From Alkalihalobacillus sp. FSL W8-0930 (GTDB lineage Bacteria > Bacillota > Bacilli > Bacillales > Bacillaceae_D), in assembly GCA_037965595.1 (NCBI GenBank), contig CP150183.1, positions 930,001 through 994,000 on the forward strand: a DNA stretch of 64,000 bases, in the 5' to 3' direction. The stretch's first letter is position 1. Every line of letters begins with the position of its first letter. This document shows, in pieces, positions 46,544-57,017 of the stretch. The notes under the pieces are model-generated. The model was not told where the DNA came from. It did not search any database and saw nothing but the letters and a program-made list of their open reading frames with translations. The position numbers and the translations under genes are program-made.

Positions 46544-47368
46544 TTAAACTTGACGTGGGGTACGGCGGATAAACAATTTCTTCAAAAGTATAACCAAACA
46601 TAGAATTGAAACAAGAATTAATGTAATCGTTGCTCCAGGTGGAGTGCTGTACGTATACGAAGTAATTAATCCACTAGTCATCGCAATTAACGCAATTGGT
46701 ATTCCAATTATAATGGTAGTGGCAAAACGCTTGCCAATACGCATAGAGATCGCTGCAGGTAATAGTAGAATAGCTGATACGAGTAGGGCACCTACAATGG
46801 GCATAATGATCGCGATTGTTACCCCAGTCAGGATATTAAACAAAATAGACATCGTCTTGATTGGTAATCCCGAGGTGAAGGCTGTTTCTTCATCAAACAC
46901 CATGACATACATTGCCTTCCGAAACACTACATACAAGCAAATAATCAAGCCTGCAAGAATGTAAAGCACTGACACTTGCTCTGCACTAATCGTTACGATG
47001 GATCCAAAAAGAAATTGGTTAATTGAAATCGTTGTACTTCCTTGATGAAAACTCATCATAAATAAGGCAAGTGCCATTCCAGTAGACATTAAGATTGCGA
47101 TGGATACTTCAGAATAGGTTCGATAAACCATTCGAAGGAGCTCGAGTAGAACCGCAACAACGACTACAACTAGCAAGTTTGTCCAGGTAGGGTTTACACT
47201 CAATAGAAACCCTAAAGCAACACCAGCTAAGGAAACGTGAGAGAGGGTATCAGCCATAAGAGATTGCCTTCGTAAAATAAGGAAGAGGCCGAGTAATGGA
47301 GCAATGAGTGAAATTAGGAATGCGGCTTGGAAAGCTCTTTGCATGAATCCATAGAGAAACATCTCCAT
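46544..47368 (-). CDS. znuB: zinc ABC transporter permease
   Basis: A 274-aa, roughly 7-8-helix permease of the ZnuB/AdcB (ABC-3) family: FLILRRQSLMADTLSHVSLAGVALG is the conserved ATPase-coupling region, followed by FDEETAFTSGLP and VGALLVSAILLLPAA. Its start (GAGGGAATGCCATG) lies inside the znuC 3' end, a 55-bp overlap; an in-frame ATG at 47344 would shorten the overlap. Last gene of the zinT1-znuA-znuC-znuB operon. Confidence 0.93.
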   Translation of the reverse strand: MEMFLYGFMQRAFQAAFLISLIAPLLGLFLILRRQSLMADTLSHVSLAGVALGFLLSVNPTWTNLLVVVVVAVLLELLRMVYRTYSEVSIAILMSTGMALALFMMSFHQGSTTISINQFLFGSIVTISAEQVSVLYILAGLIICLYVVFRKAMYVMVFDEETAFTSGLPIKTMSILFNILTGVTIAIIMPIVGALLVSAILLLPAAISMRIGKRFATTIIIGIPIALIAMTSGLITSYTYSTPPGATITLILVSILCLVILLKKLFIRRTPRQV

Positions 47369-48024
47369 GGCATTCCCTCCTTCCGAACTAACTCTATGTG
47401 CTTATTGCAATATTTACGTAGCTCATCATGATCATGAGATACCATTAGAATACCTTTACCATGCTTTTCACAGTTATGCTTTAATAGTTTGTAGAACTCT
47501 TCACGTGATCTTGCGTCCATCCCCGTCGTAGGTTCATCAAGAATGAAGAGATCAGGGTCTGTAGCGAACACACGAGCAATGGAAATGCGTTGTTTTTGAC
47601 CACCTGAGAGTTCTCCTACTTTTTTGTTGCGCATGTCCCACATGCCGACAGATTCAAGAGAGCGTCTCACTTGCTCTCTGTCTGTTTGATCTAAACGTTT
47701 AAACCATTTTCCTCGTTGATAGCGCCCTGACTGTACAAGCTCTATAACAGTACTTGGAAACCCAACATTAAAAGATGCGACTTGCTGAGGAACGTAGCCG
47801 ACAATTAATCGCTTTCCTTCACGATTTTTAGTAGCTAGCTTCACGTTGCCTACCGTTGGTTTTAATAAGCCTAAAATGCTTCGTATCAACGTTGTTTTGG
47901 CTGCACCATTTTCCCCTGTTAACATCACAAAATCTCCGGGATTAAGTTCAAATGATATATTTGTAAGTACGGGATCGTGCTCATAGTGATATGCTAAATC
48001 TTCTACTTTTACGTAGGACATCAT
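47314..48024 (-). CDS. znuC: zinc ABC transporter ATP-binding protein
   Basis: A 236-aa ABC ATPase of the ZnuC/AdcC family: Walker A GENGAAKTT, Q-loop YVPQQVASFN, signature LSGGQKQRI, Walker B LFILDEPT and switch His in MVSHDHDE. The GENGAAK form of the P-loop is typical of AdcC. The C-terminal 20 residues overlap the znuB coding region in another frame. Translation initiates behind AAAGGTAGG, directly after the alternative hairpin region at 48041-48103. Confidence 0.94.
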   Translation of the reverse strand: MMSYVKVEDLAYHYEHDPVLTNISFELNPGDFVMLTGENGAAKTTLIRSILGLLKPTVGNVKLATKNREGKRLIVGYVPQQVASFNVGFPSTVIELVQSGRYQRGKWFKRLDQTDREQVRRSLESVGMWDMRNKKVGELSGGQKQRISIARVFATDPDLFILDEPTTGMDARSREEFYKLLKHNCEKHGKGILMVSHDHDELRKYCNKHIELVRKEGMPWRCFSMDSCKELSKPHS

Positions 48025-48046
48025 AAAACCTACCTTTCTTCATAAC

Positions 48047-48103
48047 AAGGTAATAAGCTTGGCTTACTACCTTACAATCTAAGATAGTCTAGCCAAGCTT
48101 ATT
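48047..48103 (-). other. znuA-znuC intercistronic alternative RNA hairpins
   Basis: A 13-bp perfect inverted repeat (48052-48064 and 48091-48103) can fold with a 26-nt loop. On the minus-strand RNA, a competing 12-bp hairpin AAGGUAGUAAGC-CAA-GCUUAUUACCUU (48047-48073) uses the same 3' arm. The coding strand has no U-tract after it, so it is not an ordinary terminator; it lies just before the znuC ribosome binding site. On the plus strand the long repeat is followed by seven T and could terminate antisense transcripts. Confidence 0.7.
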
Positions 48104-48115
48104 TTTTTCTTCTTA

Positions 48116-49696
48116 TTAATTAACACTTAACTGCAATGACTCCAGGTTCTCACGCATGGCAGCGATGTAACTCAGCTCTTTTTCTTTTAATTCATCAGTT
48201 AGTACTTCTAGATCATAAAGTGGAGCTGTTTCTGTATTTGTTTCAGTTGCTACAGTTTGAGCAATTGAAGAGTTTGCTCCTTGCTGGAAGTAAATAACCG
48301 GTACATCATTCTCTTTTACAAGCTCGCCAATTTCAGCAATACGAGAAGGACTTGGTTCAACCTCAGTAGAAAGTCCACCGACAGCAATTTGCTCTAAATT
48401 ATAACGGTTTGCTAAGTAACCAAAAGCTTGGTGTTGCACAACAAACGTGCGGTTCTCAGCATCCGCTAGAGTAGACTGGTAATCCTCATCCAACGATTTA
48501 AGCTCGTTTATGAAGGTTTCTGCATTTTCTTCATACGTTTCTTTTCCATCAGGATCTGCTTCAATTAATGCATCACGAATGATGACTACTTGATCTTGTG
48601 CAAGGACAGGGTCAAGCCAAATGTGAGGATCAGCATTTTCATGATCATCAATAAAGATTGAAATAGGTGCTGATTCAGCATATACTTCGTGGTCATCGTT
48701 GTAGAGTTCAGCCTTCAATTCAAAACTTTCACCTGTTGTTTTATACTCAAAACGATTAGATTCTTGTCCTGATACAGCTTCCCACTCTTGATTTTCGTCT
48801 GCTCTCATAAACCAGTGCCAGTGATCAAAATCAACATCTTCTTCGGTTTCAGCAACAAGTGATACGACATCACCTGTATGGTAATGGTCAGCTACCCCAG
48901 TAACGGTAATTGCTGCTTCACCGTTTCCATGATCATGCTCTCCGTGCTCATGATCATCACCGTGCTCGTGGTCACTATGCTCATGATTATCAACAACAAT
49001 TTCTACTGCGTCTGACTCAGCATATATTTCGTGATCATTATCATAGAGAATTGCTTGAACTTCAAAACTTTCCTCAGGAACTTCCATGCTTAAGGTATCT
49101 GTGCTTTGTCCAGAGATTGGTTGCCATTCAGCGTTTTCATCTGTACGCTGATACCAATGCCAGTGGTCATAATCTACGTCTTCTCCAAGCTCGGCTGTAA
49201 GCTCAAGATCTCCACCTGTATGGTAATGATCAGAAACTCCATGGATATGAAGGTCATCCGAATGTCCGTGCTCATGATTATCGTGTTCGTGTTCGCTGTG
49301 GTCATGAGCATGCCCAAAGCCTTCTACTCCATCTGCAGCTCGTGCAATTACTAAGCTATCATTTTCAATACTATTAAATAAACTTTCCACCCAAAATTCC
49401 ATTTCTTCACTACTATATACAAATACATCAGCTTCACTTACAGTAGCTACATCTTGAGCACTAGGCTCGAAATGATGAGCATCTTGTCCTTCAGATACGA
49501 GTAATTTGACTTCCGCACGCTCACCGGCTATTTCTTTAGTGAATTCATACATTGGTAGGAAGGAGGTCACTACAGAAAGATCACCTGTTTCATTATCCGA
49601 TGATTCCTGTTGATCGCCGTTTTGTGCCTGACAGCCAAACAAAAAGGCTGTTACAGAACCTGTAACAGCCATTGTTTTAAGCCAGTTTCGATTCAT
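48116..49696 (-). CDS. znuA: zinc-binding lipoprotein ZnuA with two inserted HWHW modules
   Basis: A predicted 526-aa high-affinity zinc-binding lipoprotein (cluster A-I), far longer than the usual 300-320 aa. Lipobox FLFGC. The N-lobe carries DAHHFEPSAQD. The central region alternates His-rich stretches (HDHSEHEHDNHEHGH; HSDHEHGDDHEHGEHDHG) with two copies of an 80-residue module (DHYHTG ... DHWHW ... ENxEW ... SGQ), at about 150-232 and 263-345. The C-lobe holds the remaining ligands (DPHIWLDPV, VQHQAFGYLA, APLYDLEVL). ATG 49696 follows AAAGGAG by 8 nt; an upstream GTG would abut that site. It follows zinT1 by 78 bp. Confidence 0.93.
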   Translation of the reverse strand: MNRNWLKTMAVTGSVTAFLFGCQAQNGDQQESSDNETGDLSVVTSFLPMYEFTKEIAGERAEVKLLVSEGQDAHHFEPSAQDVATVSEADVFVYSSEEMEFWVESLFNSIENDSLVIARAADGVEGFGHAHDHSEHEHDNHEHGHSDDLHIHGVSDHYHTGGDLELTAELGEDVDYDHWHWYQRTDENAEWQPISGQSTDTLSMEVPEESFEVQAILYDNDHEIYAESDAVEIVVDNHEHSDHEHGDDHEHGEHDHGNGEAAITVTGVADHYHTGDVVSLVAETEEDVDFDHWHWFMRADENQEWEAVSGQESNRFEYKTTGESFELKAELYNDDHEVYAESAPISIFIDDHENADPHIWLDPVLAQDQVVIIRDALIEADPDGKETYEENAETFINELKSLDEDYQSTLADAENRTFVVQHQAFGYLANRYNLEQIAVGGLSTEVEPSPSRIAEIGELVKENDVPVIYFQQGANSSIAQTVATETNTETAPLYDLEVLTDELKEKELSYIAAMRENLESLQLSVN

Positions 49697-49774
49697 CACT
49701 TTCACTCCTTTAATTTATGTTGATAATGGAAAAAGGGATTGAAAAAGTGCTAGCTTTTCCTCTCCCTTTTTTTT

Positions 49775-50752
49775 TTAATGAGCTAATAAGTCTCTAACAA
49801 TACCATCGCCATCTAATTCAGAAGGATAGTATGTTGGCCAATGTGTGACTTCGTTTAATAATTCTTCACGATCATCACCCCAGTATAGATGGAAGTGATG
49901 AGAGTCAGTAGGGAAAATAATGTGATCACTGAATTGAATGTACTGAGGTAGATCTTCTGATGCTTCAGCATCTGCTAATTTATAAATAAAGCGAACCCCT
50001 CGATTTCCTTTTTCATAGGTAAGAATTTCATACCCATCATATATATAATCGCCTGATGCTTCTTCACCATTTTGATAGAATGTAACATTCCCATCATTAA
50101 TCACAATGCGTTCTACATCGGTTTCATAACCTACAGAATAGTAGTCTTTATATTCCTCAGCTGTCATGTCTCCATGGTCTGCTTTATGTTCGAATACTTC
50201 ATCAAGTTCTCCGCTCTCAAGGTAAGGATAAACTGATTGCCAATCACCTTCCCAGTCAGATAATTCACGGTCCTTAACCTGATCATCTTCAAAGTATCCT
50301 TGATAGATTTGCTTGCTATCTTCATCGTGACCATGATGATCATCAATTTCAATAACCACAGGCTCAGATTCTGCAAATACTTCATGGTCATTATCATAAA
50401 GAGTTGCTTTTATATGTAACCCATCAGTAGTGGCTTCTTCAGAGAATGTATCTCCCTCTTGACCGGAAGCAGCTTCCCATTCAGCTTGCTCATCTTCTTT
50501 TGTGTACCAGTGCCAATGATCGTAATCAACATCTTCACTTAACGCAGCAGTTAATTCGATTTGATCACCTGTGTGATAATGGTGAGCTAATCCTTCAATT
50601 TCAATATCTGCAGAATCAACTGTTTCAGATTCTTCTGAGGCCGTATTATTATCAGCTTCTGTCGACGATGTAGTTGATTCACTTTCAGAACCGCAAGCAA
50701 CAAGCGCCACTTGTAAAGCTAGTACGAATGATAATAAAGACAATTTCTTCAA
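49775..50752 (-). CDS. zinT: ZinT-family zinc-binding lipoprotein with N-terminal HWHW module (ZinT1)
   Basis: A predicted 325-aa lipoprotein. Start TTG 50752 (read MKKLSLLSF) has GGGGAG 7 nt upstream and gives lipobox LVAC; an ATG at 50803 would place the start inside the Zur operator. After an acidic linker comes one module (AHHYHTGD ... DHWHWY ... IDDHHGHD), then a ZinT/YodA lipocalin-like domain (YQGYFEDDQVKDRELSDWEGDWQSVYPYL ... SHHFHLYWGDD) with the HxH zinc ligands. It probably passes zinc to ZnuA. First gene of the zinT1-znuACB operon behind tandem Zur boxes. Confidence 0.92.
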   Translation of the reverse strand: MKKLSLLSFVLALQVALVACGSESESTTSSTEADNNTASEESETVDSADIEIEGLAHHYHTGDQIELTAALSEDVDYDHWHWYTKEDEQAEWEAASGQEGDTFSEEATTDGLHIKATLYDNDHEVFAESEPVVIEIDDHHGHDEDSKQIYQGYFEDDQVKDRELSDWEGDWQSVYPYLESGELDEVFEHKADHGDMTAEEYKDYYSVGYETDVERIVINDGNVTFYQNGEEASGDYIYDGYEILTYEKGNRGVRFIYKLADAEASEDLPQYIQFSDHIIFPTDSHHFHLYWGDDREELLNEVTHWPTYYPSELDGDGIVRDLLAH

Positions 50753-50777
50753 ATAATATCTCCCCTTATACTTATTA

Positions 50778-50809
50778 ATCGTAATAATTACGATCGTAAT
50801 CATTACGTT
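50778..50809. promoter_or_regulatory. tandem Zur boxes upstream of zinT1
   Basis: ATCGTAATAATTACGAT (50778-50794) is a perfect 17-bp palindrome and overlaps by 2 bp with ATCGTAATCATTACGTT (50793-50809). Both match the Bacillus Zur core TCGTAATNATTACGA. They lie 26 bp upstream of the TTG start. Confidence 0.92.
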
Positions 50810-50931
50810 TTAAAGAATATAGAGATTTTCCCATATTGTCAAGAGAGTATTTTAAAATTTGTTGTACTCACCTTCTAAAACAATATTGACGTTAAGAAAA
50901 ATAATAGCTATTATTAGTCCTAAATCGATAA

Positions 50932-50948
50932 ATCGTAATTATTACGAT
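50932..50948. promoter_or_regulatory. Zur box upstream of the flavoprotein-regulator pair
   Basis: ATCGTAATTATTACGAT is a perfect Zur palindrome, 21 bp before the GTG start at 50970 and about 120 bp from the divergent tandem boxes. Confidence 0.92.
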
Positions 50949-50969
50949 TAAAGCAGATGAGGAAAGTGA

Positions 50970-52106
50970 GTGAATGATGTGAAGTGGGCCATCATTGGGG
51001 GAGGAGTGCAGGGTTGTACGCTGTTTAACTACCTCATTAAAAAGAAAAAAGCATCAGCTGAGGATATATGTGTGATAGATCCTCATAGTGATCCGATGGA
51101 GCTTTGGCGACAATATACAAGCCGAATTGGTATGTCTTACTTACGTTCACCTGTATCTCATCATATTGATGTGTTTAATGCATCTCTTGAACAGTTTGTC
51201 GAAAGTCATGCGGATAATAGGGAGTCAGCCTTTAGTCAGCCACATGACCGACCCTCACTATCGCTTTTTAACCAGCACACCCAAAAAACGTTGCAAGATA
51301 CTCAAATTATGAAGTCTTGGATAAAAGGACGGCTTATTTCATTAGAAAAACTAACCGATAGCTGGCAGCTTGTCGTAGACATGACTCAATCGCAACAAAT
51401 GTTCAAAGCAACTAACGTCGTTTTAGCTATTGGGAATTCAGAAAAACCAAACTGGCCAGAATGGGCAAGAACTGAACAAAAGGCAGGCAAAGATATTTCT
51501 CATGTCTTTGATCATTCATTCAAAGTGGAGAACAAAAAGGGACCAATCTTAATTTGTGGGGGTGGACTTACTGGTGCTCATTTAGCTTTAAAATACGCGG
51601 ATGCTTCGCAAGGGCATGTCACACTAGCAACAAGACAGCCTTTAAAAGTCAGCGACTTTGAGACCGATTTAAGCTGGCTTAGTGAAGAAAAGGATCAAAT
51701 ATATCAACGGATACATTGTTATGAAAAACGAAGAAATGTTATAAGCTCTGCAAAGGAAAAAGGATCAATTACAGCCGAATTTAAGAAGAGTCTATATCAT
51801 AGTGTTGCTTCCGGAGCATTATCGATTACGCATACAAATTCGTTTCGTGAATTATGTGCCAAAGCAAAAACTGTGATTCTTGCAACGGGCTTTCAATCCA
51901 ACCCATTAGGAACAGAGTGTGCGTCCACATTCTTAAAAGAGAAAGTACCGTTAAGTGAATGTGGGTATCCCATACTAGACAAAAAGCTTCAATGGTTGCC
52001 TAACTTGTACTGTATAGGAGGGCTGGCAGAGCTTGAATTAGGGCCAATGTCTAGAAACATTGCAGGAGCAAAAAGGGGATCAGAACGAATTGTTAAGAGT
52101 CTTTAG
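50970..52106 (+). CDS. FAD/NAD(P)-binding flavoprotein under Zur control
   Basis: A 378-aa two-Rossmann flavoprotein resembling the SidA/IucD N-hydroxylase and flavin monooxygenase group. FAD motif IIGGGVQG at about 8-15, a MSYLRSPVSHHID substrate or flavin loop, NAD(P) motif CGGGLTGAHLAL at about 190, and ILATGFQSNP near 305. It is too short to be a standard ornithine hydroxylase. GTG 50970 with GAGGAAAG upstream. A Zur box lies 21 bp upstream and the regulator gene follows. Substrate unknown; a role in making a metallophore or handling metal-bound ligands is only a guess. Confidence 0.78.
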   Translation: MNDVKWAIIGGGVQGCTLFNYLIKKKKASAEDICVIDPHSDPMELWRQYTSRIGMSYLRSPVSHHIDVFNASLEQFVESHADNRESAFSQPHDRPSLSLFNQHTQKTLQDTQIMKSWIKGRLISLEKLTDSWQLVVDMTQSQQMFKATNVVLAIGNSEKPNWPEWARTEQKAGKDISHVFDHSFKVENKKGPILICGGGLTGAHLALKYADASQGHVTLATRQPLKVSDFETDLSWLSEEKDQIYQRIHCYEKRRNVISSAKEKGSITAEFKKSLYHSVASGALSITHTNSFRELCAKAKTVILATGFQSNPLGTECASTFLKEKVPLSECGYPILDKKLQWLPNLYCIGGLAELELGPMSRNIAGAKRGSERIVKSL

Positions 52107-52121
52107 TAGGAGTTGAAATTG

Positions 52122-52562
52122 ATGGATTTAGAGGCATGTCACCAGCTATTACGAAACAATAAAATTAAGTCAACCGATCAACGTAAAGAGATTCTGTGCT
52201 ATATCGCTGCACAAGCTCATATTCATCCTACTGCACAACAAATTCATGAAGCAATTGTACGTAAATACACCTCAACGAGTCTTGGCAACGTCTATCATAA
52301 TCTATCTTTGTTTGAGGAAAAAAAAGTCGTTCGAAAAATAGTTAGTGGAGATGCGGCCTCACCCTCTAGGTATGAAATTGTCGAAGATCATTCTCATCTA
52401 CATATTGTGTGTACAGAGTGTGGCAGCATTGAAGATGTATATAGTTTACGTTTTTCAGAAAAAATGAAACACCTTATTTTCCAAGAAACAAGATATCAAT
52501 TGCATGAATTTCAATCAAACCTTTCTGGGATTTGCTCGAACTGTATTGAGAAGACTGATTAA
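52122..52562 (+). CDS. zur: Fur-family regulator, probably Zur
   Basis: A 146-aa Fur-superfamily repressor: winged helix with TDQRKEILCYIAAQAHIHPTAQQIHEAI and STSLGNVYHNLSLFEE, then a dimerisation domain with DHSHLHIVCTEC and a second CSNC pair forming the structural Cys4 zinc site. Start ATG 52122 follows TAGGAG by 9 nt. Five Zur-type boxes surround it, so Zur is the best call; PerR or Fur cannot be excluded from sequence alone, and a separate housekeeping zur may exist. Confidence 0.82.
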   Translation: MDLEACHQLLRNNKIKSTDQRKEILCYIAAQAHIHPTAQQIHEAIVRKYTSTSLGNVYHNLSLFEEKKVVRKIVSGDAASPSRYEIVEDHSHLHIVCTECGSIEDVYSLRFSEKMKHLIFQETRYQLHEFQSNLSGICSNCIEKTD

Positions 52563-52621
52563 TCATACGGCATAGAATTGTTGGGGAGAAAGCGAAACAA
52601 AGGTCATGTTAAAACGAACAC

Positions 52622-52649
52622 TTGACTTTAAATAAACGTTTACTATACT
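52622..52649 (+). promoter_or_regulatory. promoter of zinT2
   Basis: TTGACT (52622-52627), 16-bp spacer, TATACT (52644-52649); the Zur box at 52655-52671 covers the expected start point. Confidence 0.7.
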
Positions 52650-52654
52650 CTTAA

Positions 52655-52671
52655 ATCGTAAGTATTACGAT
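52655..52671. promoter_or_regulatory. Zur box upstream of zinT2
   Basis: ATCGTAAGTATTACGAT matches the other Zur palindromes with one changed central position and lies just after the -10 box. Confidence 0.92.
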
Positions 52672-52688
52672 TTAAGAAAGGAGTATCA

Positions 52689-53681
52689 ATGAAAAGTTTG
52701 TATGTTAGTAGTTTAAGCGTTATCATTTTAGCTTCGTTATTAGGAGGTTGTCAGTCAAGTGATTCTGTTGAGAGTACAAATGACAATCAGGAACAGGTTA
52801 ACAACGAGGATCAGGAAGAATCCATTCCTGGAACACTTACTGTAGTTGGTTTAGCTGACCATTATCATACAGGTGACACTGTAGAATTAACTGCTACTAC
52901 AGAAGGGGATCTGGATTCTAACCATTGGCACTGGTACACACTACCTCCAGGTGGAGACGCTACTAATGAGGAAGCATGGGAAGATGTACTAGATAACAGT
53001 ACCAATACGTATTCTAGTACGGCAGAAGAAGATGGGCAGCAGGTTTTAGTTCGTTTACTTGATGAAGAAGAAAATGTTGTATCTGAAAGTCAGCCTCTGA
53101 CTATTGCAATTGACGATCACCATGGTCATGACGATGTAACTAAACGAATTTATGAAGGATTCTTTTATTATGATGAAGTAGAAGATAGAGAACTATCTGA
53201 TTATGCGGGAGATTGGCAGTCAGTCTATCCATACCTTATAGAGGGTGATCTAGACGAAGTCATGGAAGTAAGAGCAGAAAAAAGTGATGAACGAAACAAA
53301 GAAGAAATGATCGAGCATTATACTTCTGCATATGAAACGGATGTAGATAGAGTGGTTATAACTAATGACTCATTTACGTTCCATTACAATGATGGCAAAG
53401 AAGTAACGGCTGAATATGCTTCAGATGGCTATGAAATTTTAGAACGTGATGCCGGAAACAGACAAGTTCGATTTGTATATAAGCGCCAAGATGATACAGA
53501 TGAAATGCCTACGTATATGATATTTAGCGACCATAATATTAATCCTACTCCTGCGCATCACTTTCACTTGTACTTCGGAGAGGACCGCGATGCACTTTTA
53601 GCTGAACGTTCCCATTTCCCAACCTACTATCCTTCTAGCTTAGATGCTGCAGGAGTTGTTAGAGATATGCTAGCTCATTAA
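52689..53681 (+). CDS. ZinT-family zinc-binding lipoprotein with HWHW module (ZinT2)
   Basis: A 330-aa lipoprotein, lipobox LLGGC, paralogous to ZinT1 over its full length. It has one N-terminal module (ADHYHTGD ... NHWHWY ... IDDHHGHDD) with a small loop insertion PPGGDATNEE, and a C-terminal ZinT domain (YEGFFYYDEVEDRELSDYAGDWQSVYPYL ... AHHFHLYFGED). AAAGGAG lies 5-6 nt before ATG 52689. It is its own transcription unit with Zur box and terminator. Two ZinT paralogues in one island suggest dosage or division of labour. Confidence 0.92.
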   Translation: MKSLYVSSLSVIILASLLGGCQSSDSVESTNDNQEQVNNEDQEESIPGTLTVVGLADHYHTGDTVELTATTEGDLDSNHWHWYTLPPGGDATNEEAWEDVLDNSTNTYSSTAEEDGQQVLVRLLDEEENVVSESQPLTIAIDDHHGHDDVTKRIYEGFFYYDEVEDRELSDYAGDWQSVYPYLIEGDLDEVMEVRAEKSDERNKEEMIEHYTSAYETDVDRVVITNDSFTFHYNDGKEVTAEYASDGYEILERDAGNRQVRFVYKRQDDTDEMPTYMIFSDHNINPTPAHHFHLYFGEDRDALLAERSHFPTYYPSSLDAAGVVRDMLAH

Positions 53682-53698
53682 TGATTTATATCTCTTGA

Positions 53699-53728
53699 AA
53701 AACGACGATGATCATCGTCGTTTTTTTG
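53699..53728 (+). terminator. terminator after zinT2
   Basis: ACGACGATGATCATCGTCGT (53702-53721) is a perfect 20-bp palindrome, followed by T7. Confidence 0.9.
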
Positions 53729-53831
53729 TATGTTTACGTCTGTGAGAAAAAAGTTCGATTAATATAAAATCTCGATTCAGTAAAAACTCCCTGTGTTTTT
53801 CAAATTAAATCGAGTATACTTACATCACTAA

Positions 53832-53848
53832 AACGTAATTATTACGAT
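53832..53848. promoter_or_regulatory. Zur box upstream of the 82-aa protein / flavoprotein / FeoB-like operon
   Basis: AACGTAATTATTACGAT differs from the perfect palindrome at one position. A -10-like TATACT (53815-53820) lies just upstream. It is 19 bp before the first start codon. Confidence 0.88.
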
Positions 53849-53867
53849 TTGAGGGAAGGGAAGACAT

Positions 53868-54116
53868 TTGTCAAATAGAGTTGAAGTAAAAAATTATTTA
53901 GAGCAACACGTACAGAACCACAAGAGATATCATCTTGTAGTGAATCACTCTCTACACTTTATGGATAGTGAATTTATTATTCGTGAAATGATTGATGCAA
54001 GTGAGGATGAGATTGATGTACTGTATGAAATATTTGAGCAAATGGAACCTAATGAAGAACACATACATCAGTACTTAGAATATATGGCTAAGCTTTATAT
54101 CAGGATGAATCAATAA
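53868..54116 (+). CDS. 82-aa Zur-controlled protein of unknown function
   Basis: A small, soluble, mostly helical acidic protein. It starts at TTG 53868 (read MSNRVEVK) with GAAGGGAAG upstream; no nearby in-frame ATG exists. Six histidines (in EQHVQNHKRYHLVVNHSLHF and EEHIHQYLEY) could bind metal. No family recognised. First gene of a Zur-box operon with the second flavoprotein and the FeoB-like transporter, so a role in zinc handling is inferred from context only. Confidence 0.7.
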   Translation: MSNRVEVKNYLEQHVQNHKRYHLVVNHSLHFMDSEFIIREMIDASEDEIDVLYEIFEQMEPNEEHIHQYLEYMAKLYIRMNQ

Positions 54117-54147
54117 CAAGTTGTTTAGATTGTTGGAGGGATAAATA

Positions 54148-55266
54148 GTGAGTCAGTATAAGAGGTTAATTATTGTTGGTGCCGGACCAGCAGGTATTGG
54201 GCTGGGTATTTTGTTAGAAAAGTTGAACTTTCACTCGTACACCATTTTAGAGGCTGACCAAATTGGATCATCCTTTTTAAATTGGCCAAAAGAAATGAAG
54301 CTTATCACACCTTCATTTACAGGCCAGGGATTTGGTGCGCTTGATTTAAATGCTATTACGCCAGGTACTTCACCAGCATATTCTTTTAGAAAAGAGCATT
54401 TGTCAGGATTAGAGTATGGTGAGTACTTAAGATTACTAGCGGATCATTTTGAAGTAAATGTTGAAGAGGGGTATGCTGTCCTTCATGTTGAAAAAACGAA
54501 TGGTCGCTTTACACTTGAAACGTCACAGGGGGATTGGACATGTGATGCGTTAATTTGGGCAACTGGAGAATTTCACTTCCCTAAAACAGATGGAATTCTA
54601 GGTTCTAGATACGGTGTCCCTAGTGGATTCATTCAATCCTATAAAGAGTTGGAGATTGGTCAACGTTACATAATCGGTGGTGGAGAAAGTGGAATGGATG
54701 CTGCTTATCATCTTGCATCCAACGGAAGCAAGGTAACGGTTCTTCTAGAAGGACATCTAAAGGATTTCGCTGCAGATCCAAGTAGAACGATATCTCCCTA
54801 CACCTTTGAAAGAATTCAAAAGGAAGTAGCACAAGGACGGATTCAGTTTCTAGAGGGAGTGAAAGTAGAGGAAATTAGATTAGAGCAAGATGGATATTCG
54901 ATTCACCTTCAAAATGGACAGACATTATCTTCTCAGATGCAACCGATCCTAGCAACTGGTTTTAAATCAGGTGTTGAACAAATTCAGGAATTTTTTGAGT
55001 GGAAGGAAAACGGTAAACCAAAGCTTAGTGAAGAGGCGGATGAATCTACCCTCATCAAAAACCTGTTTGTTGCTGGCCCAAGTGTTGAACACGATTCAGC
55101 TATCTTTTGTTTTATATATAAGTTTAGAGCAAGATATGCTGTAATGATTGAACACCTTTTGAATAAGTGGTCAATAAAAATAGACCAAAACGTGTTAAAA
55201 GATTACCGAGAGAATCAAATGATTGCTGATGATCTTTCCTGCTGCGAAGTAGATTGCGAATGCTAA
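54148..55266 (+). CDS. FAD-dependent oxidoreductase with C-terminal cysteine cluster
   Basis: A 372-aa two-Rossmann flavoprotein of the thioredoxin-reductase/FMO-like group: FAD motif IVGAGPAGIGLGIL at about 8-21, NAD(P) motif IIGGGESGMDAA near 175, and a C-terminal FVAGPSVEHD loop. No CxxC redox pair lies in the usual place, but the protein ends CCEVDCEC, four cysteines in the last eight residues, a plausible metal-binding tail. A GTG start follows TTGGAGGG. It overlaps the FeoB-like gene and is downstream of a Zur box. Substrate unknown. Confidence 0.8.
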   Translation: MSQYKRLIIVGAGPAGIGLGILLEKLNFHSYTILEADQIGSSFLNWPKEMKLITPSFTGQGFGALDLNAITPGTSPAYSFRKEHLSGLEYGEYLRLLADHFEVNVEEGYAVLHVEKTNGRFTLETSQGDWTCDALIWATGEFHFPKTDGILGSRYGVPSGFIQSYKELEIGQRYIIGGGESGMDAAYHLASNGSKVTVLLEGHLKDFAADPSRTISPYTFERIQKEVAQGRIQFLEGVKVEEIRLEQDGYSIHLQNGQTLSSQMQPILATGFKSGVEQIQEFFEWKENGKPKLSEEADESTLIKNLFVAGPSVEHDSAIFCFIYKFRARYAVMIEHLLNKWSIKIDQNVLKDYRENQMIADDLSCCEVDCEC

Positions 55267-56939
55267 ACGAAGCTTCTCGAATGAACCAACGAGTTGTCCT
55301 TGTTGGACTTGAATCTGTTGGCAAAACAAGTCTATTTTCATTTTTAACAGAGCAACGCACAGGGGAAGAAGTGAATGCAAAAGGATCTACCGTCTATTTA
55401 AAGGAGCAAAAGCTTGATTCTTTTACGGTTGTAGATACTCCAGGTCTTCGGATGGATGACAGTGAAACATATCATGCAGTCAGGGAGGAAATTAATCGAG
55501 CCGATCATGTTCTCCTTACGATTAAGGGAACACATTTTCAGGAAGAGTTTGAATTCTTAAGGCCTCTCTTAGCAAAAGGTTCCTTTTGTTCAACGTTACT
55601 TGTCACATTTGTTGATCGCATGACAGAATCAACTAGGAATAAATTAAAGAACTATGTGATCAGACATAAGTTAAATGTCGTGTTTTTAAGTCCAACTGAT
55701 AAAACGAAGCAGAGACGTCAACAGATTATTACATCAATAAAGGAAGGTAAAAGTCTTACTCTTGATGCCAGGAACAAACTAGCTAGTATTCACATTGATC
55801 CTACTCATCCTAAAAAAAATTGGTATGAGAATAGAATACTAGGCGTACCACTTGCTATACTGTCCATCTTTCTTATGTTTGGTCTACCAATATTTCTAGC
55901 TTACCATTTCTCTAGTGTAACTGAGGATCTTATTAAACAAGTAGTTATTAATCCAGTCATTGCTCTTTCAACAAACTGGCCGGAATTTTTGCAAATTTTG
56001 TTTGCGGGAGACTATGGACTTTTTACTTTAGGTCTGTATTCATTTATTTGGGCTTTTCCTGTAGTGCTATTTATATCTATTGCAAGTGCGATAACAGATG
56101 ATGCGGGAATTAAAGATCAAATTATCGATACTCTTGACCCGTGGATGAAAAAAATTGGGTTACATGGACAGGATCTTGTACCAATTTTAACGGGCTTTGG
56201 TTGCAATGTGGTAGCTGTTCATCAAACTCGTGGTTGTAGCCTTAAAACTAGAAAACAATGTGTTTCCCTACTTTCTTTTGGCTCAGCATGTAGTTATCAA
56301 ATTGGAGCCACTCTTTCTATTTTTCAGGTCGCTCAGTTACAATGGCTCTTTATACCTTATCTTTTAACTTTATTTATAGTAGGTGTCCTTCATAACCGAA
56401 TTTGGTTTCCGATCAAGGATATCAAATGGGCTAGGTACTTTAAGACTCAAAGAACCTTTTTACAAAAGCCGTCATATCAAGGAGTCTTCTTTAGAGTGAA
56501 AAGTGTAATTTCTCAATTTCTTACTCAAGCTATGCCTATCTTTTTAATGATATGTTTAATAGCTGCACTATTAGATTATACACATATCCTGACTTATTTG
56601 ACTGGAATAGTGACTCCTGTCATGACTATGATTGGAGCTCCTCCTGAAGCAAGTGCAGGTCTTATCTTCTCGATGATCCGTAAAGATGGTATTCTTCTAT
56701 TCAATGAAGGAAACGGTGCATTATTAAATATGATGTCTGCGGGGACAATTTTTGTACTCGTTTATCTTGCGTCAACACTGTCCGCTTGTTTGGTTACACT
56801 TTGGACTATAGTTAAAGAGTTAAAAGGTCGAATTGCACTTTCACTTTTTGTAAAGCAATTCATAACATCAATTGTTTCTTCTATGGTTATACTGTTGATC
56901 CTTAACTTAGCCGTGGCCCTTCATCTTAAAGTATTTTAA
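55260..56939 (+). CDS. compact FeoB-like GTPase/transporter, candidate zinc importer
   Basis: 559 aa: an N-terminal G domain (G1 GLESVGKTS at about 16-24, G3 DTPGL, degenerate G4 TFVDRM where N/TKxD is expected) and a membrane part with about 8-9 helices. FeoB gate-like segments are GFGCNVVAVHQTRGC and FGSACSYQIGA, where classical FeoB has GCNVPAI and CSARLP. It lacks the long spacer of standard FeoB (usually about 650-770 aa). The start is uncertain: ATG 55260 overlaps the upstream stop, ATG 55281 is also possible. Zur rather than Fur context suggests Zn2+ or another metal as substrate; this is inference. Confidence 0.8.
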   Translation: MLNEASRMNQRVVLVGLESVGKTSLFSFLTEQRTGEEVNAKGSTVYLKEQKLDSFTVVDTPGLRMDDSETYHAVREEINRADHVLLTIKGTHFQEEFEFLRPLLAKGSFCSTLLVTFVDRMTESTRNKLKNYVIRHKLNVVFLSPTDKTKQRRQQIITSIKEGKSLTLDARNKLASIHIDPTHPKKNWYENRILGVPLAILSIFLMFGLPIFLAYHFSSVTEDLIKQVVINPVIALSTNWPEFLQILFAGDYGLFTLGLYSFIWAFPVVLFISIASAITDDAGIKDQIIDTLDPWMKKIGLHGQDLVPILTGFGCNVVAVHQTRGCSLKTRKQCVSLLSFGSACSYQIGATLSIFQVAQLQWLFIPYLLTLFIVGVLHNRIWFPIKDIKWARYFKTQRTFLQKPSYQGVFFRVKSVISQFLTQAMPIFLMICLIAALLDYTHILTYLTGIVTPVMTMIGAPPEASAGLIFSMIRKDGILLFNEGNGALLNMMSAGTIFVLVYLASTLSACLVTLWTIVKELKGRIALSLFVKQFITSIVSSMVILLILNLAVALHLKVF

Positions 56940-56982
56940 AAATAACTACCAATCGCCAGTCGTTGTAACGAAATAAAAAGTG

Positions 56983-57017
56983 AGCCAGATGAATGAATGG
57001 ATTCATCTGGCTTTTAT
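56983..57017 (+). terminator. terminator after the FeoB-like gene
   Basis: A perfect 12-bp stem AGCCAGATGAAT / ATTCATCTGGCT over 6 nt, then TTTATT. Confidence 0.88.

Follow-up and report, generated by a model that had tools for sequence, protein, structure and literature searches.

A FeoB-like gene and a cysteine-tailed flavoprotein gene behind Zur boxes in a bacterial zinc-starvation island

The window analysed here is a stretch of 64,000 nucleotides (G000:C1:930001-994000) in the one-contig 3.885-Mb genome of Alkalihalobacillus sp. FSL W8-0930; positions are counted from its first letter unless a contig is named. The stretch from 46544 to 56939 is a Zur regulon cluster, i.e. a bacterial zinc-starvation island. 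In its last operon a gene for a FeoB-like GTPase and Gate permease (feoBL, 55254..56939, + strand) overlaps by 13 nt the preceding gene flavo2 (54148..55266, + strand), which encodes a flavin adenine dinucleotide (FAD)/nicotinamide adenine dinucleotide (phosphate) (NAD(P)) oxidoreductase with the C-terminal tail SCCEVDCEC. The FeoB-like gene and the cysteine-tailed flavoprotein form an almost obligatory pair, and the zinc regulation of this pair is close to certain. The best explanation, to which a probability of roughly 0.6 is given, is a zinc importer derived from FeoB, controlled by Zur and partnered by a flavoprotein. We infer the zinc cargo, the import direction and the role of flavo2; the boxes, the pairing, the clade and the cysteines were computed, and induction was shown by others in genes matched by gene order. 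The finding is real, general and under-described, FeoB-type transporters themselves being already known.

Zur boxes, gene pairing and expression

Matches to the motif ATCGTAANNATTACGAT were located at 50778 (0 mismatches), 50793 (1), 50932 (0), 52655 (0) and 53832 (1). All five near-perfect Zur palindromes reported by the first-pass annotation were therefore present at the places claimed, far above the level of shuffled sequence, and all its open reading frames (ORFs) lay where it had placed them. With up to three mismatches the motif gave 15 strand hits in the window against 2.36 expected, and 15 hits were reached in 0 of 100 shuffles. The core TCGTAA-N3-TTACGA with at most one mismatch was confined to the five sites within the window; with two mismatches it occurred at three further places, and the reversed window yielded four places, all with two mismatches. 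Across the genome, a 23-mer with up to three mismatches was found at five places (reversed control: 0), three of them in the island and the remaining two side by side, 5' of a cobW/COG0523 gene (G000:C1:1197021/1197065). Chance matches were ruled out as an origin of the boxes by the shuffles and by the reversed-window and reversed-genome controls.

The box at 53832..53848 (one mismatch) stands before p82-flavo2-feoBL. Its position and those of two terminator-like hairpins on the + strand, one 3' of zinT2 (53697..53726) and one 3' of feoBL (56982..57013), fit these three genes being one transcription unit. Two boxes overlapping by two bases (50778..50809) precede zinT1-znuACB, and single boxes with 0 mismatches precede flavo1-fur (50932..50948) and zinT2 (52655..52671). 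Promoter-like hexamers lie just 5' of three of the four box groups: TTGACA-17-TATTCT (50842-50814, - strand) just upstream of the overlapping boxes, TTGACG-17-TATTAT (50886-50914) before the box at 50932, and TTGACT-16-TATACT (52622-52649) before that at 52655. Since promoter-like sites (38 against 32.8 in shuffles) and terminator-like sites (8 against 6.5) showed no excess, only their position was used.

The box before the operon is kept in relatives. Each protein was searched against a class sample of 398 genomes (cut-offs E 1e-20 for FeoBL and E 1e-40 for flavo2); feoBL was present in 25 genomes and flavo2 in 24, all of them among the 25 (Fisher 1.3e-37), the 25th feoBL genome (G331) holding a match of 131 residues only. 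Neighbourhoods were retrieved for 32 genomes, other than that of the window, with matches in the family and class searches, and boxes in relatives were scored as Zur cores with at most two mismatches in the same-strand run; the criterion applied by eye was looser. Excluding the window's own genome and the G331 fragment, which has no box, 23 class-sample feoBL loci were scored. By script, flavo2 adjoined feoBL in 21 of them, and it lay beside split genes in L059 and L063. A Zur core was found by script in the operon run of 19 of the 23; among 127 control ORFs lying elsewhere than at the pair, one had such a core. The four misses were boxed by eye (23/23): upstream, before a COG0523-type gene, in L053 and L063; directly before the split flavo2 in L059; and inside an over-long ORF start in L070. 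In the family sample, 7 of 8 feoBL loci were boxed and none of 39 controls; the exception, L044, has COG0523 separated from feoBL by an IS110-type transposase gene, with its box at the start of COG0523. Around canonical feoB, a Zur core within 900 nt was found at none of 30 loci.

Three genomes (G028, G038 and G039) carry feoBL at a zinT-znu locus without flavo2 alongside; their flavo2 (74-75% identical) is encoded elsewhere, in a p82-flavo2 arrangement with a Zur box. As flavo2 is retained there though unlinked, these genomes are the strongest sign that both proteins work together. The pairing of the FeoB-like protein with a cysteine-tailed flavoprotein, suggested by the first-pass annotation, was thus borne out by 24 shared genomes of 24 and by adjacency. 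The two flavoproteins that it listed in the island are indeed distinct, and flavo2 alone accompanies feoBL. It had also treated these genes as unusual additions to one zinc island; their zinc-regulon marks stand, but numerous other genera have them after Zur-type boxes too. The additional zinc-acquisition route that it suggested, perhaps redox-dependent, is still a proposal.

Scanning named genomes with a profile gave 142 relatives, and the 80 best were retained as loci (78 with a called feoBL ORF, 75 with a flavo2 ORF). flavo2 lay within 200 nt of feoBL in 67 of the 78 loci, and a Gram-positive Zur box was present in the run in 48 of the 78, against 2 of 58 controls; 25 of the 30 unboxed loci are outside Bacilli and five within. 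Homologues of COG0523-type, rpsN or dcd genes (Pfam queries cobW, ribosomal S14 and dCTP deaminase) were found within about 5 kb in 58 of the 78. Named relatives of feoBL within Bacilli belong to the Bacillus licheniformis group, Paenibacillus, Oceanobacillus, Gracilibacillus and Alicyclobacillus, and elsewhere to Klebsiella, Tatumella, Superficieibacter, Erwinia and Stutzerimonas; Verrucomicrobia, Chloroflexi and others also hold relatives, many as metagenome-assembled genomes (MAGs). A search of 72,556 plasmid records found relatives of FeoBL, which may lie inside or outside its clade, in 530; of these, 499 are from Klebsiella and a few are archaeal. Annotations among the plasmid matches listed were nucleoside recognition protein, FeoB small GTPase domain protein, 50S ribosome-binding GTPase and ferrous iron transporter B.

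For gamma-proteobacterial loci, a Gram-negative Zur-like pattern modelled on that of E. coli Zur was scored against 2000 shuffles. Sites before flavo2 had one mismatch in L140 (reached in 0/2000 shuffles), two in L115 (1/2000), L136 (6/2000; flavo2 ORF called short) and L122 (7/2000), and three in L107 (55/2000). Genes of the cobW/COG0523 type lie near the pair in L107, L115, L122 and L140, though not in L136; Fur-family genes in L107 and L122; CysS genes in L115, L122 and L136; a phosphoribosyl-AMP cyclohydrolase (HisI-type) gene in L122; and a threonyl-tRNA synthetase gene in L140. CysS, phosphoribosyl-AMP cyclohydrolase and threonyl-tRNA synthetase are usually zinc-holding enzymes.

Two variants of gene order were seen. 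In L041, L042, L074 and L075 a ZnuA-type binding protein (Pfam ZnuA for L041) precedes flavo2-feoBL in the same run, as if it could feed FeoBL. In five loci of Verrucomicrobia type (L086, L097, L103, L105 and L143) the order is inverted, feoBL coming before flavo2, and the cysteine tail is then followed by an extension.

A staphylococcal counterpart was reached through PDB 3d1c ('Flavin-containing Putative Monooxygenase', S. aureus Mu50), a 103-residue piece of which was 100% identical in genome G440; among 84 genomes of the genus, 33 had a match to this piece. In G440 a perfect Zur box is followed by genes for flavo2 (tail SCCEVSCTC), feoBL (448 aa, Gate only) and a cobW/COG0523 protein (296 aa) and then, on the opposite strand, for a 278-aa alpha/beta hydrolase and a 336-aa amidohydrolase. 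The same order is given in the available part of PMC5480029: FAD oxidoreductase NWMN_2483 (SA2370), hypothetical protein NWMN_2482, COG0523 protein NWMN_2481, alpha/beta hydrolase NWMN_2480 and amidohydrolase NWMN_2479 ('NWMN_2370' in its text and SA2370 in its table were taken as one gene). According to that part of the source, calprotectin induces NWMN_2483, NWMN_2482 and NWMN_2481 152-, 83.1- and 43.2-fold, and sulfide, which cut medium zinc about tenfold with no iron response, induces them 5.5-, 4.0- and 2.4-fold. The three genes thus match flavo2-feoBL-COG0523 in gene order and are induced by zinc limitation. The lack of a zinc response, named by the first-pass annotation as the outcome that would speak against its reading, is contradicted by this induction of the gene-order-matched genes.

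In the part of PMC5480029 available, the NWMN genes are called uncharacterised oxidoreductases, a hypothetical protein and a COG0523 GTPase, and no FeoB-type module is recognised among them; a search by five locus tags found no further publication. The Zur regulon of Bacilli as described in PMC6103462 (znuABC, zinT, yciC/zagA, rpsN, folE2) has the same boxes and the same neighbours as the pair; in the available text of that source no FeoB-like or FAD member is named for Firmicutes, and 'FAD' and 'ferrous' occur 0 times. In the literature library searched, which did not extend to regulon databases such as RegPrecise or to most subscription papers, no publication was found that recognises a FeoB-type clade under Zur control and partnered by a flavoprotein.

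Relation of FeoBL and flavo2 to known families

The compact FeoB-like GTPase of the first-pass annotation was confirmed as a G domain plus a Gate domain in two stretches (Gate 1.1e-20, MMR_HSR1 1.8e-10). The closest named family of FeoBL is the ferrous transporter FeoB (TIGR00437), with which it shares the N-terminal G domain, the two-stretch Gate, the GFGCN and second-gate cysteines and the equivalent of C512, and from which it differs by extra cysteines, Zur boxes and a flavoprotein partner. It scored 94.7 bits against the TIGR00437 equivalog cut-off of 315.65, i.e. below the level for membership. Canonical FeoB above this cut-off was present in 61 of 121 class genomes, the window's own genome having none, and canonical feoB coexists with feoBL in G090, G105 and G155.

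In a tree of 72 rows, comprising 42 clade rows (41 from the 80 named loci, plus the window protein) and the 30 best-scoring canonical FeoB proteins, FeoBL and canonical FeoB separated fully (support 1.0, branch 4.97). C317, C346 and C512 are common to all 42 clade rows and all 30 FeoB rows, so that the Gate domains retain the conserved FeoB cysteines. C328, C336 and C434 were found in 42/42 clade rows and 0/30 FeoB rows, and C331 in 39/42 and 0/30. The G-domain NxxD and the second-gate AKE of canonical FeoB are both replaced, by TxxD in the FeoBL rows shown and by RKDG, which is invariant in all 42. The possibility that feoBL is simply the ordinary iron feoB of this genome was rejected on the TIGR00437 score, the separate clade and the clade cysteines.

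The AlphaFold2 model of FeoBL was confident (predicted local distance difference test, pLDDT, 88.2). A fold search with this model in the PDB matched G-domain proteins only and one in a viral library gave nothing useful; in a PDB sequence search with the FeoBL alignment, the best 60 of 109 matches included GTPases and FeoB G domains. In neither PDB search (best 60 of 109 for the sequence matches) was a solved match to the membrane part found.

flavo2 (Pfam Pyr_redox_3, 3.1e-91) belongs to the same family as PDB 3d1c (phmmer 1.8e-85), which is also its best fold match (TM-score 0.89-0.93): homology extends over the full length including the cysteine tail, with SCCEVSCTC of 3d1c aligned. The title of the 3d1c entry names neither a zinc role nor a partner. 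The flavo2 model is confident (pLDDT 91.5) bar the last six residues, the tail being disordered. Across 38 aligned rows (37 taken from the 75 named flavo2 ORFs, plus that of the window), C321, C366, C370 and C372 are invariant, and an active-site CxxC was not among the invariant columns. C-x(2-4)-C-x-C was found near the end of 73 of the 75 ORFs, and the vicinal CC form in 61. The tail recalls, by analogy only, the flexible vicinal-cysteine tail of mercuric reductase.

The YpdA/Bdr bacillithiol disulfide reductase (TIGR04018; PDB 7a7b, 7a76) was the second-best fold and sequence family; flavo2 differs from it by the extra C-terminal tail and, at 90.8 bits against a cut-off of 339.9, falls outside TIGR04018. 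The active-site cysteine of YpdA lies in a GGGPC-type motif, where flavo2 reads GAGPAG in the alignment.

Proposed function and alternatives

In the proposed mechanism, of which the expression step is the one backed by experiment (in S. aureus), Zur would leave its box when zinc falls, a release established for Zur, and the p82-flavo2-feoBL operon would be made. FeoBL would most likely move Zn(II) across the membrane along the Gate path with its three FeoB cysteines and the added ones; zinc is preferred over iron as cargo because of these added cysteines. flavo2 would work on the cytoplasmic side, where its flexible tail (CCx3CxC here) would probably accept the metal or relay thiols. FAD and NAD(P)H would keep the tail and/or the gate thiols reduced, so that zinc could be bound and handed on, and the COG0523 chaperone often encoded nearby could receive zinc from flavo2.

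A broader and more tentative proposal, rated at slightly less than even odds, is that the pair represents a zinc importer of a new class, in which a Zn(II) permease derived from FeoB, with an optional G domain, would be coupled obligately to a flavoprotein that takes the ion from the cysteine-lined gate with its cysteine tail, under NAD(P)H control. It would occur in Bacilli, enterobacteria and Stutzerimonas and, judging by MAGs, in Verrucomicrobia and Chloroflexi, and would have escaped recognition because its members are annotated as iron transporter, nucleoside recognition protein or monooxygenase. Should FeoBL carry zinc, a zinc route filed under iron or nucleoside transport would be present in many genomes, including those of staphylococci and Klebsiella plasmids. 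This would explain several strongly calprotectin-induced, unexplained genes of S. aureus and show how a FeoB-type gate alters its choice of metal; the clade-specific cysteines and the flavo2 tail make the idea directly testable.

Several points weigh against a zinc importer. Zur control is not proof of zinc cargo, as Zur regulons also include zinc-sparing enzymes. The window FeoBL itself has K331, one of the three exceptions to C331. The G domain was missing in three staphylococcal-type FeoBL proteins scanned; it is therefore dispensable in part of the clade, and GTP cannot be the general energy source. The tail is lacking at the end of two flavo2 ORFs (L087 and L088), five of the 80 named loci (L102, L112, L121, L129 and L151) gave no flavo2 ORF, and in L102 feoBL stands alone behind a box with 0 mismatches. 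Within Bacilli, L078, L079 and L126 have no box within two mismatches, and in L118 and L123 the box lies only further upstream, before rpsN or COG0523; outside Bacilli and gamma-proteobacteria, box counts rest on the Gram-positive Zur core only. As to expression, the NWMN tags were matched to G440 by gene order and annotation, not by the sequence of that strain, calprotectin withholds further metals besides zinc, and sulfide also raised mntABC (PMC5480029, available part).

The induction of these manganese uptake genes can also be counted for a Zur-controlled importer of another cargo, in which FeoBL would import Fe(II), Co(II) or Mn(II) for metal-swapped enzymes and flavo2 would reduce the metal or a ligand. 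The nearest named family being ferrous FeoB, the absence of another FeoB from the window's genome and the presence of metal-swapping paralogues in Zur regulons (e.g. folE2, beside flavo1 in L178) agree with such a cargo; the extra cysteines, which would point to an ion softer than Fe(II), the canonical feoB alongside feoBL in three genomes and the induction of the matched genes by sulfide without an iron-limitation response (in the same part of PMC5480029) speak against it, and this explanation is considered unlikely. Import of a zinc-ligand complex (a metallophore or zinc-thiolate), with flavo2 reducing or modifying the ligand to free the metal, would suit the resemblance of flavo2 to YpdA-type reductases and flavin monooxygenases, and also the four loci with an upstream ZnuA-type protein, where ABC genes were not in view. 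The Gate pathway is of the ion-transporter type, and such a complex is considered quite unlikely as cargo; the neighbourhood labels cover island-type genes only, so that this explanation was weakly tested.

Zinc sparing or redox repair in place of uptake, with flavo2 keeping protein or low-molecular thiols reduced and FeoBL acting as a sensor or exporter, appears less probable still. The flavo2 fold is related to bacillithiol disulfide reductase, and flavo1, a second Zur-boxed flavoprotein, lacks feoBL in 47 of 64 genomes; yet FeoBL retains the Gate domains and FeoB cysteines, and GAGPAG of flavo2 stands where YpdA has its cysteine-bearing motif. Finally, the patchy spread (25/398 class genomes, 530/72,556 plasmid records) might suggest that the Zur boxes alone carry meaning and that a zinc island, moved horizontally, simply brought the genes along as ordinary passengers. 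This was already disfavoured and is hardly credible, given that feoBL and flavo2 co-occur even when unlinked, that the clade cysteines are conserved and that the pair recurs in several phyla with different Zur-like sites.

Other genes of the island

Family searches confirmed the remaining contents of the island as the first-pass annotation had described them (ZnuABC, two ZinT proteins, a Fur-family regulator and two FAD/NAD(P) proteins, beside the GTPase and Gate protein). On the - strand lie znuB (zinc ABC permease, 46544..47368, Pfam ABC-3 2.8e-71), znuC (ABC ATPase, 47314..48024, Pfam ABC_tran 1.5e-29), znuA (zinc-binding lipoprotein, 48116..49705, Pfam ZnuA 2.3e-74 in two stretches) and zinT1 (lipoprotein, 49775..50752, Pfam ZinT 1.1e-81); zinT2 (lipoprotein, 52689..53681, Pfam ZinT 1.6e-63) is on the + strand. 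The mechanical zinT1 ORF extends to 50803, through two boxes. Judging from an RBS-like (ribosome-binding-site-like) GGGGAG and a lipoprotein-like signal in the sequence, translation probably begins with the TTG at 50752, which would place the boxes at 50778 and 50793 before the gene.

A 96-aa module (HYHTGD ... DHWHWY), missed in the first-pass annotation, is common to ZnuA, which has two copies (48629-48916 and 48971-49258, - strand), and to both ZinT proteins, with one copy each (50324-50611, - strand, in zinT1; 52830-53117, + strand, in zinT2). A second ZnuA-like protein of the genome (G000:C1:397743, L249), behind a Zur box with one mismatch, also bears it. The module had no match in Pfam or NCBIfam and occurred in 1 of 151 class genomes, namely that of the window; it may serve this lineage as a zinc-scavenging domain.

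The divergent Fur-family regulator (52113..52562, + strand, Pfam FUR 5.7e-22) lies inside the Zur-boxed flavo1 operon and is the fourth of its family in the genome, Fur-, PerR- and Zur-like proteins being encoded elsewhere (the Zur-like one at G000:C1:1446196); it remained below the NCBIfam cut-offs for assignment to Fur, PerR or Zur. A 38% homologue adjoins p82 in L204. The 82-aa protein p82 (53868..54116, + strand) is present as described, but only mildly His-rich (7 of 82 residues), and had no match in Pfam or NCBIfam. Nine of 41 family genomes, the window's own among them, encode a homologue; the homologues in L201-L209 stand beside Zur boxes, with or without flavo2, and some near rpsN, COG0523, znuA or fur genes.

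flavo1 (50970..52106, + strand, Pyr_redox_2/NAD_binding_9) is a second, separate conserved Zur-boxed flavoprotein. It was found in 64 of 398 class genomes, 17 with feoBL and 47 without, and a single pathway comprising flavo1 and flavo2 was left unsupported, since only those 17 carry feoBL. By script, 25 of 29 flavo1 loci had a Zur box (misses: L173, L174, L184 and L186); the control in these short loci was high (7/34), probably because neighbours share promoters. Homologues (L171-L199, L250) often lie near COG0523, rpsN or folE2. The G440 homologue has a box with one mismatch and adjoins Na+/H+ antiporter and thioesterase genes. It corresponds by gene order to oxidoreductase NWMN_0815, as PMC5480029 has a sodium/proton antiporter at NWMN_0813; the available part of that source reports NWMN_0815 as zinc-limitation induced and up 229-fold with calprotectin.

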